NCBI GenBank assembly: GCA_905250025.1
Contig: CAJNOJ010000039.1
Coordinates: 494,175 to 558,174 of the forward strand
Reading direction: 5' to 3'
Length of the DNA stretch: 64,000 nt
From: Adineta ricciae
Lineage: Eukaryota; Rotifera; Eurotatoria; Adinetida; Adinetidae
Part shown: piece by piece, positions 35,534 to 44,100 of the stretch
Numbering within the stretch: the first letter of the stretch is position 1
Layout: each line of letters opens with the position of its first letter
Position numbers and translations under genes: made by a program
Notes under the pieces: generated by a model
What the model was told of the DNA's origin: nothing
The model's database searches: none
Seen by the model: only the letters and a program-made list of their open reading frames with translations

Positions 35534-37218
35534 TTAGACTTTTTTATGTTCGCTAGCTGGCATATGTGTAAATTCGAAGTCTAAATGAACGAATGCTCGT
35601 TCAACGTCATCAATTTCCTCTAATTGAGTTTGCAATTCGGCACCAATGTCATGCGCTTCAGACAATGGCATTGCACCCGGTAAACCAATATCGACTTCGA
35701 CGAAAAAATTCGTACCAAGATGAACAGCTTGGATCGAATCGACTTTTGTAACGATATCTGGACGATAATTGTATACAACATGTGTTATTCGTTGGAGAAA
35801 GGGTGGTTCGGCTGATAGACCGGTCAAATGACGCACCTGCCCTGAACAATACAGAAACAAAAAACAAGTAGAAAGCTTGTAACTACAAGAAAATGATTTA
35901 CTGTTTGCTTGTAAAATCCAAGCTATGATAATGTAGATTGAAATGACGATACCACCGACCGGATCAACTACTATTGCTTCTTGTTTGAGATCACCACGTC
36001 GAGCATGAGTTGCTGAATAAACAAATCAATTCATTTCAATAATGTTGTCTACTCTCATACCTATAAGTCCGCAAGCAAGCGCTACGATATTAGATACGAC
36101 ATCATTACGATTATCTTCGGCCAGTGCGTACATTGTTGGATTGTTGATTCGATAACACAAAACGAAAAGAATTGCTTTTGAGACTAGAAGAAAGAATGAC
36201 GAGAGTTTCCTTTTCCATTTGACAAGAAAATCAAATTTACCAATAGTGATAACCATTGATACGATAGGTAAAATACTCATATCGATATCAGGTAATGTTT
36301 TTGTTGATGAACCATTATGTTTATTGGTAAAATATTCAATATCCTGTTCTAATGTTTCACCACTCTCGAAGATGACTTGTACACTCGCTGAACACATGAT
36401 GACCGATAGAATGACAATCGAGATGGGTTCAAGACGAGTTCGACCTGAAAAATCAGTACAGCGTTTGCTTTTGGACTTATATTTAATCTGTATGTACCTC
36501 CAGGATATTTATAAGCATCACGATTTTTGATTTTTCTCGATGTCCAAAGAAGAATGACACTTGTTAGTAGATCGACGGTACTGTCTACAACTGATGAAAT
36601 CACTGAAAGTGATCGCGATATGACCGCTGCGATAATTTTGATAATCAAAAGAATCTTTAATCGAATATTTAGAACAAATACTTCGACAAAGCAAGGAAAA
36701 CTTACGATATTTACTACTAAAGTAACTCGAGTCAAAATTTTGATATTACGATTTTGTCGTCGTTGTGCATCTGTTTGATGATCATTTGATTCGTCCGTTT
36801 TTGGCAACAGAATGTCTTCGATAGACGTTATCAATTCCAACTGATCTTCATAGAAATCCCTATTTTCAGTTAATAACATCGGTGAAAAAACCTTGTCTCA
36901 GCTTATTTATATTATCTACCTGACTTTTTTCGGAAGAGATTTGTCATCTGGATGACAAAGAGGCTTGAATGACTGAATATGCTTGAGATAGCCATAGTCC
37001 GATGAAACATCAGGCGCTTCTGCTGCTGCTGTCGTTGTTCCTTGGTCAACATCTGCTTCTGGTATAGAAGCGTTATTACGGTTTTTTGACAATGCTTCTC
37101 GTCGAGCTGCTAGAACACGTAAAGGCCGTGCTGGGTTTGGAGGATTGCTGCTAAATGATGATCGTTTTCTGCTTGTATTCGGTAGAATATGTGGCTCTTC
37201 AAGCTCTACGTAATTCAT
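35534..37218 (-). CDS. Cation diffusion facilitator, Mn-type (DxxxD) metal transporter
   Basis: Membrane cation/proton antiporter of the CDF (SLC30-like) family. After an Arg/Ser-rich cytosolic N-terminus of about 100 residues come the transmembrane segments. TM2 contains VVDSTVDLLTSVILLW and TM5 contains AEDNRNDVVSNIVALACG, both giving DxxxD metal sites. This pattern, with KYPGGRTRLEPISIVI after TM2, resembles the Mn-CDF group (plant MTP8-11) rather than Zn transporters, which have HxxxD sites. A C-terminal cytosolic domain (HLGTNFFVEVDIGLPG ... VERAFVHLDFEFTH) ends HKKV. Seven or so exons with short introns. A TTTCATCTAG acceptor-like site ends two bases before the ATG. Mn or Fe transport is inferred from the motif and was not tested. 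Confidence 0.87.
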
Positions 37219-37705: not shown

Positions 37706-40700
37706 TCATCGATAACTTATGAGATATTCAGCATATGCTTGTGAATCATGATAGGTTACTAAAGATAAACGAAATCAGATAAAATACTCATTTGATAGAA
37801 ATCGGTCCTACCAAATATACTGTGTCCATCACCAGTTGTATCAAAACCTGCGGGTGGTACACGCATTGATGAATTCCCTTGAACTGTATTACCAACAAGA
37901 ACCCGAGCTAGAATATACAAATAATAACTTTAAATGCGAGAAATTTTCAAATCCTATTTACCAAGAAACATTCGTCGAATCCCATTGCGATCAGGTGCAG
38001 CGTAGCTGTGACTATATGTTGAATCGCGTGCAAAATAACTACCTTGCCCATAAGCAACGGCTATAATAGAAATATTGAAAAAGAAATTTCTCTGTGTTCT
38101 CGATATCAACTAACCACGTTGACCAGCGTACGAACGATTAAAACATTCCATCTCGATATTTCTCGATGCTTGTTCGTCGCAGCCTGAGAGAAATATAAAC
38201 AATTCGTTTAAATTTTTACTAGCTCTTTTTCTACGCTTCACCGTGAAATAACCATTGTTCAGTTTGTTTGCCTAGTTTTTGTCGGAATTCAAAATCGTGT
38301 GCTGAATATTGTTTGAACCATCGTTGATTTTGTATGCGTTCGATTTGTATAATTGTTGGTGGATTAGTACCAGGAAGAGAAGGTCTTGACATTTGTCGAC
38401 GAGCATGCACCAGCGGACGTTGGTTGTAAACATTTGTCTGAGTATATGGAACTGGAATCGATGGATGCACCTGTGCAGGAAAATGAGCTTGAGGAATATT
38501 TGGGATTGACGATGGTTGCGCCTGTGCATGGAAATGAGTTTGAGGGACACTTGGTGCTGTCGATGGTTGGAACATTGATTGTGGCCACGGATGTCCGAAA
38601 TATGGCGCCTGTGGAGAGATCTGATTGCCTGCGACCGGTACTGTCATCATTGATGGTAGTGCCATTGGATTTACAACAGCTGTACTATTTGGATTGCTAG
38701 AAACTGGCGCTATAGGTCTGAATGGCTGCGTTAGTTGTCTTTGACGAATTGCAGGCTGTTGATTCGTTAACGGTAGCATAAGAGGGGCTGATGAGTATGA
38801 GGGTGGCAATTGGTGCGCAGGTATCGCAGGATTATGAGTTAAAGTCATTGGAGCGAGAGCTGCTTGTTGATTTGCAAGGTGAGTCCAGCTGTTTGTAAAT
38901 TTATCCAATACAAATTTATACTCTGTAGATTGTGGATCAAGTGTATGACGAGAAAAGTTCATTAACATTGGCAGTGTCCAGTATTTAGGTAAACATTGCT
39001 GTTGATTTATCAGTAAAATATCAAAATCGGAATCATCATCATTGTCATTCGTATTATTGTCGGCCTAGATAGAAAAACGGAAATATTCTTATGTAATCAG
39101 ATGTGTTCGAGGCAATTTCTACCTGATTAGTACTTCTTTGTTGACTGAAATGCACCGCATGTTCCAATTCAAATAGTTTTCCTTGCTGATACAATTGTAT
39201 GGCATCAATCTCCACCTGTGGTAAACGTAAATTAGCCAGATCATTACGTTTGATCGAAGCACGGCAGAGTGTACAAGCTAATAAATAAAATAATATTTCG
39301 TCTTCTAAGAAGAAAAGAATAACTCATTCGCACTCACTAAGCAATTCATTTGTCATCGTTCGTTGTCGATTGACTTCATTCGCAAAACAATCATAACATA
39401 TTTTACAATTACAATGCAACACAAAGATATTGCCGTATGAATGCTGCTTAGAGCATATTTCACATTTACGACGTGGTATATCATCTTCATTCGTTGCTGT
39501 TGCTGTTGTTGCCGTTTCATTTTGTTGTTCAAGAGTTGGATCGACATTTACTGCATCTTCATTACCATACAATTGTGTATATAACTCAATTACCTTCTGA
39601 TTTTGATAATTCTGATAGAGATTGATCTGTTCATTCGTCAAGGCGCGCACTTCTAAGAAATCTCTATCTTGTAAATGATAACTGCATTTGTAACAGGTTA
39701 ATATTTGGTTAGTGTTCAACTATAGATATCGAACTTCAAAATTAGTCATCTATAAATCTCTTCTTACTTTTCTTTGCAGATGTTGTGTATAGCATCCTAA
39801 GCATAGCGAATGGCCATTATCACAGTTGATTGTGTAGAAATCTTCCGATGGTACTGTATTTTTGCACACGTCACATAAATCATTGGATAAAACTAAATAA
39901 TACAAGTATCGAAAAACAGAAAAGACTTTCATAGCAATTCACCCACCAATTGGCTGATTGAATTGTTCAATCATTTCATAGACATCTATAGTCTGTCGAT
40001 GTTTTCGTTGCCATGCATTTATAAATGATTTAACATTTTTCTCATCAATGTTGGGATTCTGTAAATGCTTGACTAAAAACTGTATCAATGCCGTATTATT
40101 ATCATTGTTACATATAATCATGTGTTGTTCATAATCATCAATAGAAACGGGACAATAGCAGATTTCACACGGAATTGTTAGGGAACGCCCGAGACATTCA
40201 TTTTGATGGATGTAGAAATTGTGTTGATCGATGTACAATTCACATTTACCACATTTCATTCGACTATCCTTATTTTCCGTAGGCGGTTTTAATTCAAGTA
40301 GTTTAAGAAGAACTTGATGATCTTTGATTGCAATTGGTAGATCGTCAAGATCTTCGACTTTTAACGAATAAGCGCAATCAACGATTAAACACCGTGGTGG
40401 TGTTTTAGTCTAGAACAAAATATGAATAAAAGGACGCAAATCGCTTTATTTCATTCATACTTGAACATGTTTCTGTGTCCAGATGAAAATACAATTCAAA
40501 CAAAAGCAATGCGTTGATGGACAATGGAATGTTTTCAATAGTTTCTCTTGTTTACCACAATGATGACATTGTTCCTTGTTTTCGTCAATCTCATCAGGTG
40601 TTAAATCAGCAAAAACACAGGACGATGGATTTGAAAGACTTCGTCTAGAATTCGGTGATTGACACCGTCGTTTACTTGAAGGACATGAACGTTCTGAATC

Positions 40701-40745
40701 TTCATTATTAGTAGTGACATCAACTCTCGAAGACGATTGACTCAT
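37706..40745 (-). CDS. Multi-RING/TRAF-like zinc protein fused to a PARP (mono-ADP-ribosyltransferase) domain
   Basis: Ten exons join in phase to 849 residues: 40461-40745, 39947-40409, 39768-39892, 39338-39719, 39123-39277, 38242-39064, 38115-38183, 37962-38060, 37812-37907, 37706-37758. Residues 60-107 form a RING-like Cys/His set (CHHC, TFHCPSTHCFCLNC, then CLIVDC). Two CxxC..HxxxC fingers follow (CGKCELYIDQHNFYIHQNEC; CEICYCPVSIDDYEQHMIIC). Two more RING-like blocks come next (LCDVC..CDNGHSLCLGCY..CYKC; KCEIC..HCNCKICYDCF..CTLC). A Pro/Gln-rich linker (about 480-690) leads to a PARP catalytic domain: IERIQNQRWFKQYS, LFHGC, CFNRSYAG, YGQGSYFARD and IFVTYHDSQAYAEYLI at the end. The triad reads H744, Y776, I831, so mono- rather than poly-ADP-ribosylation is predicted. 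The usual HGT is HGC here. Start is preceded by acceptor-like TATTTTAG, 8 bases upstream. Confidence 0.88.
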
Positions 40746-41125: not shown

Positions 41126-44100
41126 CTAGCCAAGCTGTGGAGGCGGAGGTGGAGGTGGTCGTTCGCGAATAAGACATTGCAATCCGGCGTTATCAGCACA
41201 GTGACAGACACGTTTAGCACGAAGACTTAAATTCGGTAAACAAAGTTGACCTGTCGTGCAATCATTATTGTCACCACATACATTGTTCACTAGAACAAAG
41301 GAATATTATCATATGACATTTGAGAGAGCAGTTCTTCTAATTTTTATTTTACCATCACTAGGACATGAGTCTTTGACTGCAACTAAACCGTAGAGTTTAC
41401 CGTTACCACCTGATGGTAGAAGTACACTATCAGGTGTACGACTAGGTGTTTTATCAATTCGACCGATTTTATTTCTAAATGGTGAATAAATCAGTTCGAT
41501 AGAACATTTTCAAGTCAGCTACATACGTTGACCAATCTGTCCAATATGCATATTGAAGTCCATCACTCAATCCGAAGATCATTGTTGTTTGATCAGTTAA
41601 AAGTACACGACGATTTGATCCATCATCGCGTACACATTCAATTGTTTTCATTTTTGCATCACCCCAGCATAATTCTCGACGATGATGATCGTAATAGAGA
41701 CCATTAGGTAAACCAAGTTTGTCGGAAACCAGTATTTTTCGTTCGCTTCCATCCATGTTAGCTCGTTCAATACGCGGATTTTGTCGATTCCAGTCTGTCC
41801 AGAAGACATATCTAAGAGACAACGAATCTTTTGTCAAAACTATCGATATGCTAATCTTACCCAAGTTCGGGATTGACCGCAATAGCACGAGGATTCTGAA
41901 TATTTTTATCCAAAAGAACTTTACGTAAACTACCGTCTAATTTCGCCACTTCCAAACGTTTCAATGCTGAATCCGTCCAAAACACTAGACGTGATACCCA
42001 ATCAATAGCAATACCTTCAGGACTACCGAGTCCTAAAAATCAAACAACAACTACTTTCTCTTTCGAACTCATGTCCATCAAAATTACCGCTAAGAATGAC
42101 TTTCTGTTCCGTGCCATCGTATTTCATTCGTTGAATCGTCTTACCAGATGTATCGGTAAAATAAACAAATTGCTGACGGCAATCAACAGATATACCGACA
42201 GCACGCATTCCTATACATACAGGTATTCGTTGTAGTTTTACGAGGAAAGATTTCTTATTTGCTTATTACTTGGGACATAAAGAATACGCTGTTCGCCATT
42301 ATTAGTTGAACCTGATGCTGTCAGAGGCACTTTGAGAATTGTTTGTCCTTGATTAACAATTAAAAATTGTTCTTTGGGTCCGCCTAACGTTTCTGCGCAA
42401 CTACAATGACAACCGAATCTCAATCATATGGCAGAGGAAAACTTAGAAAATATTTACTGTATTCCATCACCAACAAAACCATCTTTACATGAGCAAACAT
42501 TGTCCTGAAGAATTGCATCATAAACACAAGCAGCAGAAGGTGAACAAATAGTGGCATTTTCCAAACACGAATCTAAACGAAATCAAAAGGTTACAATTCA
42601 ATAGGACATAAACATCCTACGTTCGTGACGACATGTTATTCCATCTCCTTTGTAACCAGTTCGACAGAGGCATACATGTCGGTCGATGCGTTCATTGTAG
42701 ATACATTGTGCATTCACATGACACTTATTCTCGATATTACATGACACCACTGCAAAATCGAGAGAGCATACAGAATTTTCCTTTGGTATTTATACTCCGT
42801 TACCATCTTTGACACAAGTAGAAAATGTTGTTCCGTCGTTGAGATATCCAGGATCGCAGACACATTTACTGAAACCAGGTCGTTGTTCATCCGGTAGGCA
42901 ATGTGCATTATATCCACAATCGCCATCTGTTGAACAGAAATGTGCTGTACAAGAATACCCATCGCCATAAAAGCCTACAATCATTTGTTTGATGGAAGTC
43001 AAGAATCATCGTTGCGAAAACAAACCTGGTTTGCACGTGCATTCATATTTTTGTGTATTTTCGTTGATTAAACAATTGGCATTGGTATCGCAATTGTAAT
43101 ATTCGTTGCATTGTTTTGGTTTGCAAATGGATTTATAATTTCCGTTAACATGATTTTCATGATCGTCAGTCATTTGCCAACCTTCTTTGCATAAACATCG
43201 AGCATGTCTTGTATGAGGATCTTGTATGCATGTGGAAAATTGTGGACAGATCTTTGTCGCACAAGTTTCAACTAGATAGAGAAACTGTTGTAAGATTTCT
43301 CTTTGGAAAAAGGTCAATCCTTTACTTTCATCATTGATAGGTTTACAGAAAAATCCATTACCAATATAGTTTCGTTTACATTCACAACTAAAATTTCCAT
43401 AGGTGTTCGTACATATGGCATTTGAATGACATGGTGATTGAATACATTCGTTTACATCTATGAATAGATAGGAATACGGTCAAGAGATATGGACAGATTT
43501 CATCTTCTTACCGTCACAACGTCGTACGCCATCTCCGAGAAAACCCGGATTGCATTTGCATTCGTATGTATTCTGTTCAAAGTTCGGTATACATTGAGCG
43601 TAGCCATGGCAAGGTGAAGAATCACATGGGTCAAATTTTGGAGCTAGAAAATTGTAAGAGATTGTCTTCGGTCATCGAGAAAGAAAGAATCTTGTTTGCA
43701 AGTNTCATCGAGAAAGAAAGAATCTTGTTTGCAAGTACCTTGTGTGCCAACTTTTGTGACAGTAAAAAATCGAATGGTCGTGTCTTCAATTGAATGATAA
43801 ATATGATTATCTTGATTCGATACGATAATTTCTTTTGGGGATCGATGTGGATTATGTGGGCATTCGTAAAAACTCAAATTATCCTCAATTTCATAACTCA
43901 TGTTGTACGCAACACTGGTGTTCGCATCAATTTTCGACACTAACGTATATGTTGGAGATGCTTTTGCATCGTAATGACCTACAAAATATGAATTCACGTA
44001 TGTTTCTCGAACAACCATAGACGAACCTAATGATCGTTTGATGTATTTTATGTTATTGTTGCCGATCGTAACCGATAAGTTTCCTTCGGGATGTGGTAGA

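Follow-up and report, generated by a model that had tools for sequence, protein, structure and literature searches.

A bdelloid rotifer protein joining RBR-related RING1-type domains to a PARP14/15-like domain in a single chain

We provide evidence that a gene of the bdelloid rotifer Adineta ricciae combines, in one chain, a zinc-binding half related to ubiquitin ligases of the RBR type and a PARP domain of the PARP14/15 kind. The gene lies in a stretch of 64,000 nucleotides from contig CAJNOJ010000039.1, here called the window. Judged from gene structure and comparison with related sequences, the fusion is real, conserved and encoded as one chain. The protein is most simply read as the descendant of an RBR-type gene in which RING1 was doubled and a PARP domain came to stand in place of IBR and RING2, probably through exchange of the ligase's catalytic half.

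Results and discussion

Gene model

The gene occupies positions 37706..40745 of the window and is read on the minus strand, from 40745 to 37706 (all coordinates below refer to this strand). Ten exons splice in phase to 849 residues with no internal stop: exons 1-5 at 40745-40461, 40409-39947, 39892-39768, 39719-39338 and 39277-39123, exons 6-10 at 39064-38242, 38183-38115, 38060-37962, 37907-37812 and 37758-37706. The introns follow the GT-AG rule and measure 48-60 bases each. A deposited A. ricciae protein of 849 residues, named 'Poly [ADP-ribose] polymerase' (P0001), is letter-identical to the spliced window protein. Splicing and the identical deposited sequence thus confirm the ten in-phase exons and 849 residues given in an earlier note on this DNA. 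The part that this note had called a linker (38970-39060) instead encodes an acidic stretch and, after it, the residues with which the PARP fold begins.

Two neighbours on the minus strand were recognised in passing: a gene of the cation efflux family at 36026-36897 (one exon frame scores above the Pfam cut-off, one just below) and, at 41475-41936, a frame that encodes an LDL-receptor class B repeat.

The PARP domain and its insert

At full length, PARP (PF00644) is the sole Pfam family that scores above its cut-off (62.3 bits against 26.7), and the best solved relatives of the domain are PARP14 and PARP15. The fold is divided into two pieces. The second, which contains the catalytic centre, comprises residues 704-849 (37709..38365); the first, at about residues 495-533 (38876..38992), aligns to PARP14/15 once it is joined to the second. 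Between them a Pro/Gln-rich insert (about residues 536-703; 38366..38869) interrupts the fold. When the insert is removed the PF00644 score becomes 68.7 and the profile match begins at position 1, not 21. Similarly, the PARP14 score goes from 92.6 bits with the whole protein as query to 109.4 with the joined pieces, and the match reaches into the first piece.

The catalytic triad is found exactly where it had been placed before: H744 (38245-38243), Y776 (38037-38035) and I831 (37818-37816), conserved in 7/7, 7/7 and 6/6 family sequences, respectively. A triad of H-Y-[hydrophobic] instead of H-Y-E characterises a mono-ADP-ribosyltransferase. Judged by its triad and best relatives, the domain should be a clade-3, PARP14/15-like enzyme that adds single ADP-ribose units. 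With PARP14 and PARP15 (clade 3) it has the catalytic fold and the H-Y-hydrophobic triad in common, but the in-fold insert and the RBR-related zinc half set the window protein apart. It also differs from them in its lack of accessory domains: Pfam detects no macrodomain in P0001-P0006, and WWE gives no match.

The insert of about 170 residues is rich in Pro, Gln, Ala and Ser, and its place is kept in the family while its sequence is not. The spacing from STEY to I..IERIQN amounts to 148-212 residues in 7/7 family members against 17-22 in 11 other PARPs. Overall the insert is missing from 14/14 other PARPs (11 by script pattern, and three similarly short by eye). We considered an unspliced intron as the source of the insert. 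This is unlikely given the observation that seven family models keep the insert at the same place, even though length and sequence vary. Moreover, its 168 codons contain 0 stops (against 8 and 3 in the other forward frames), and none of 2000 mononucleotide shuffles was stop-free.

A tree of the PARP domain (18 rows, without P0016-P0018, which the pattern used for cutting out the domain missed) needs two changes of the fused label, and 0/11 of its inner branches are strongly supported; the origin of the PARP part is not settled by the tree.

The zinc-binding half

The three RING-like blocks and two CxxC..HxxxC fingers described previously are all present, and the 32 proposed Cys/His zinc ligands are invariant in every aligned family sequence that covers them (6/6 or 7/7). 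RING-A (residues 60-107; 40374..40568) is of the C3HC4 type with C-x4-C in its last zinc loop. It is followed by zinc finger 1 (residues 148-167; 40194..40253) and zinc finger 2 (residues 176-195; 40110..40169); for these three elements the ligands are conserved in 6/6. RING-B (residues 256-303; 39684..39875) is a C3HC4 domain of the RBR RING1 type, and RING-C (residues 377-423; 39264..39464) is a second RING1-type copy with eight cysteine ligands. Both have the canonical C-x2-C as last ligand pair, whereas RING-A does not. RING-B is without a linchpin arginine: position 304 is Ser, Asp or Thr, and Arg in 0/7 family sequences. In RING-C, Arg424 (39261..39263) comes immediately behind the eighth ligand, at the linchpin position; this residue is Arg in 6/7 family sequences and Leu in Didymodactylos carnosus.

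None of the RING families scores above the Pfam cut-off in the window protein, either at full length or with the zinc pieces cut out. The cut-out RING-B yields several sub-threshold RING matches and a narrow pass for zf-TFIIIC (23.5 against a cut-off of 23). Because the RING models stay below cut-off, the name 'RING' is based here on ligand conservation and profile comparison. A profile of the N-terminal half matches parkin RING1 with E=0.031 as its best value, and RING-A itself weakly matches the RING1 of an RBR-type E3 (E=0.052) and the RING of TRIM2 (0.4).

The earlier note had also called this half TRAF-like. This label proved weak: for the finger pair, E is 0.02 against TRAF4 and 0.17 against FLN29, and Pfam reports neither zf-TRAF nor MATH in full-length P0001-P0006 or in the cut-out zinc pieces. 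As the best TRAF-type match ranks behind an unrelated plant zinc finger (0.012), the protein was not assigned to the TRAF family.

Further domains were sought in P0001-P0006. There is no Pfam match to IBR at E up to 1 and no match to a RING2 with catalytic cysteine; RING-C runs into an acidic linker and then into PARP. Unlike the DELTEX family, these six proteins have no Pfam match to a DTC domain. NCBIfam, a bacterial and archaeal library, yielded no match. Structure predictions were of low quality, with a mean pLDDT of 36.5 for the 849-residue protein (8 sequences) and 40.0 for P0007 (6 sequences). The predicted PARP part likewise stays below 50, and no conclusion was built on these models.

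Probable origin from an RBR-type gene

The A. ricciae genome was searched with the whole protein, and 53 of 88 first-look candidates were scored. Four further genomic places match the zinc half, on C669 (L039), C94 (L040 and its near-copy L041) and C127 (L042), with no PARP match within the surrounding 6.5-7.5 kb. These relatives and the window gene have both fingers and one RING1 in common, as well as the part of RING-A that starts at the third ligand; the first two ligands of RING-A were not found in L039-L042.

All four relatives proceed from RING1 into an IBR. The IBR exceeds the Pfam cut-off of 24.3 in three of nine scanned pieces (39.2, 39.2 and 35.8 bits; L041 was unscanned), and these are the pieces that span RING1 and IBR; zf-RING_14 passes in one. 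After the IBR, a RING2-like segment can be seen by eye in L039, L040 and L042, where no Pfam family scores above cut-off. The RING1-IBR region of L040 matches an RBR-type E3 (E=1.2e-6) and parkin (7.3e-6), followed by weaker matches, from E=0.0081, to zinc regions of viral papain-like proteases. For L042 the match to an RBR/parkin-like RING1-IBR reaches E=0.0047 only.

Profile comparison (hhalign) links both RINGs of the window protein to the RBR RING1 of these relatives: 99.6% for RING-B (E 3.8e-24) and 98.9% for RING-C (3.3e-17), while RING-B and RING-C match each other at 98.3% (1.1e-14). The N-terminal block matches that of L039-L042 at 99.5% (3.3e-23). In each of these four comparisons 0/100 shuffles with fixed Cys/His and all other columns shuffled reached the real score. 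The likeness covers RING-B and RING-C plus the stretch after each. Against the relatives' IBR only 0.5% is obtained for RING-B and 1.4% for RING-C, and RING-C as a degenerate IBR was accordingly rejected. Given that RING-B and RING-C are of the RBR RING1 type, an origin from an RBR E3 is indicated rather than from a TRAF-type protein. In the RING1s of the four relatives, the residue at the linchpin position is Pro (twice), Ala or Asn.

Gene structure can be compared as well. Intron 2 of the window gene (39893..39946) is a phase-1 intron located 6 residues ahead of the first RING-B cysteine. By eye, a phase-1 intron also precedes RING1 in 4/4 relatives (two of them near-copies), at a distance of about 12 residues, so that the place matches only roughly. 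With their RING-like part and two fingers before RING1, L039-L042 may constitute a lineage-specific RBR subfamily. An additional run of finger-like motifs was seen in a neighbouring frame of L040 (4281-5132).

Family and distribution

The protein searches detect only proteins that share exact words with the query and have 0.55-1.75 times its length. Using the whole protein, six were found in all (P0001-P0006). The relatives from Rotaria sordida, Rotaria sp. Silwood1 and Adineta steineri show 58-60% identity at 100% query coverage. Shorter models come from Rotaria sp. Silwood2 and R. magnacalcarata (P0005 and P0006): they start inside RING-B, most of which is thus missing, as are RING-A and the two fingers. 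A protein of D. carnosus (P0012) shows 38% identity over 789 columns, its model stopping before the third triad residue. In a protein of 350 aa (P0007), RING-A and the fingers are present along with a portion of RING-B, but RING-C and PARP are absent.

The earlier note had proposed a search for the same architecture in other rotifers. The single-chain layout indeed recurs in A. steineri, in two Rotaria and in D. carnosus, and is therefore neither chance nor a mis-joined gene. Its presence in D. carnosus implies that the fusion is probably older than the known bdelloid radiation. No A. vaga protein is among the six matches to the window protein, which might mean that the gene was lost or that its model falls beyond the searched length range. 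The search that found P0012 did return one A. vaga protein (P0017), whose accessions beside PARP we take to be ankyrin and macro.

Proposed mechanism and alternatives

In RBR ligases RING1 holds the E2~ubiquitin in an open state, after which the ubiquitin passes to a cysteine of RING2 (accessible part of PMC5462532). The same source describes a linchpin residue in more than half of the canonical RINGs, with RBR RING1s being without it. As the window protein has no RING2, and hence no catalytic-cysteine domain, such a relay would not be possible. On balance we lean slightly towards a protein whose RBR-derived zinc half would act as a RING-type E3 next to a mono-ADP-ribosyltransferase, with both marks coupled in cis on shared targets. 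RING-C, with its linchpin-type arginine, would work like any ordinary RING, activating E2~ubiquitin so that the ubiquitin is transferred directly, and an arginine in six of the seven sequences is what a return to such canonical transfer would look like. RING-B would serve as a second or regulatory dock for E2 or ubiquitin; since RBR RING1s normally discourage direct transfer, it at least may be inactive alone. RING-A and the fingers would recognise the target, and the PARP domain would add single ADP-ribose units to that target, the enzyme itself or bound ubiquitin. The two marks would thereby be coupled in cis, against in trans as is thought for DTX3L/PARP9/PARP14.

The most serious alternative, which we nevertheless hold to be doubtful, is that the zinc half serves only as a scaffold for targeting: its RBR-derived RINGs would have lost ligase function and would bind protein, ubiquitin or nucleic acid, bringing the PARP to its targets. 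It would fit that neither IBR nor RING2 follows the RING1 copies, that RBR RING1s disfavour direct transfer (PMC5462532, in the part accessible), that D. carnosus has Leu at the linchpin position and that RING-B is without Arg there in 7/7. A lost function is harder to reconcile with all 24 RING ligands being retained down to 38% identity, and with the arginine of RING-C at a position where the four relatives' RING1s have none.

A bolder version of the coupled enzyme, which seems unlikely to us, is an RBR ligase in which an NAD+-using transferase took the place of the thioester-forming catalytic module. The PARP would prime the target, and RING-bound E2~Ub would be discharged in cis onto the ADP-ribose, so that one chain would write a hybrid mark. 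An ester-linked hybrid of ADP-ribose and ubiquitin is known from DELTEX ligases (PMC12687431, accessible part), and it is possible that such a hybrid is written here, although P0001-P0006 gave no match to a DTC domain.

Quite improbable is a protein in which the RINGs present E2-bound ubiquitin and the PARP ADP-ribosylates this ubiquitin or the E2, blocking conjugation instead of promoting it. P0001-P0006 show no detectable DTC domain, and ubiquitin ADP-ribosylation, initially attributed to PARP9/DTX3L, was subsequently mapped to the RING-DTC part and then reinterpreted (as far as the accessible text of PMC12687431 goes). This has to be set against the exposure of ubiquitin in open E2~Ub on RING1 (PMC5462532, accessible text) and the chain position of the PARP, which is that of the relatives' IBR and RING2-like segment. 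Finally, a merger of two neighbouring genes by annotation is hardly credible: even though the gene model was made from DNA and protein sequence only, two models start inside RING-B and P0007 is without PARP, the same parts are joined in five models from Adineta, Rotaria and Didymodactylos (P0001-P0004 complete, P0012 incomplete at its end), P0005 and P0006 still link RING-C to PARP, and the frames join in phase.

Comparison with known systems

RBR E3s of the parkin kind have RING1 in common with the window protein, but there it is followed by IBR and RING2, whereas here RING1 is doubled and followed by PARP. In DTX3L/PARP9 (with PARP14), E3 and ART-fold functions are also combined, though divided over two or three proteins rather than united in one chain. 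A clade-3 PARP of Dictyostelium, DDB0232928, has an N-terminal U-box and a macrodomain (accessible parts of PMC2964712 and PMC4245714). It likewise has an E3-type domain and a clade-3 PARP in one chain, but the window protein has three RING-like domains and two fingers instead of the U-box, and no macrodomain. PARP6/8 proteins with UBCc occur in fungi, moss and Chlamydomonas (PMC4245714, accessible part). There a ubiquitin-system domain is fused to PARP as well, but it is E2-like and the PARP is of another clade.

The earlier statement that no standard animal protein is known to have several RINGs and a PARP in one chain is thus weakened: the Dictyostelium U-box PARP is a printed precedent for an E3-type domain joined to PARP. 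In the literature searched, which consisted mostly of papers outside subscription, we found no animal PARP described as derived from an RBR or RING protein.

Desiccation and significance

A link to desiccation tolerance, suggested earlier, is not supported. R. magnacalcarata is classed as obligately aquatic and nondesiccating (accessible part of PMC7943196), and RING-C with the PARP half persists in this species (P0006, a partial model), which speaks against a desiccation-only role. In A. vaga many PARP genes are raised by radiation and rehydration, none of them tied to the window gene in the accessible part of PMC10809525.

The linkage of ubiquitin to ADP-ribose on proteins has been described as a mark only recently; in mammals a PARP supplies the ADP-ribose and a separate E3 the ubiquitin (PMC12687431, accessible part). 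A natural single chain with both modules would offer a compact system in which coupling can be tested by point mutation. Two protein-tagging systems that usually reside on separate proteins may here be run by one molecule. The fusion further suggests that evolution can put a different enzyme in place of an RBR ligase's catalytic half, and that this exchange was retained since the deepest known bdelloid split.

Other bdelloid PARPs

Matches to PARP are found at at least 125 places in the A. ricciae genome, often several per gene, pointing to a large PARP expansion. Macro-PARPs do occur in bdelloids (P0008 and P0020). Other partners of bdelloid PARPs, by Pfam accession or name, include major sperm protein and WWE; further accessions presumably stand for macrodomain, PDZ and ankyrin. 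One protein of 599 aa (P0021) has a PARP14/15-like PARP and, shortly upstream, a RING-like C-x2-C..C-x2-C motif without match to a RING family; it is possibly an independent fusion.
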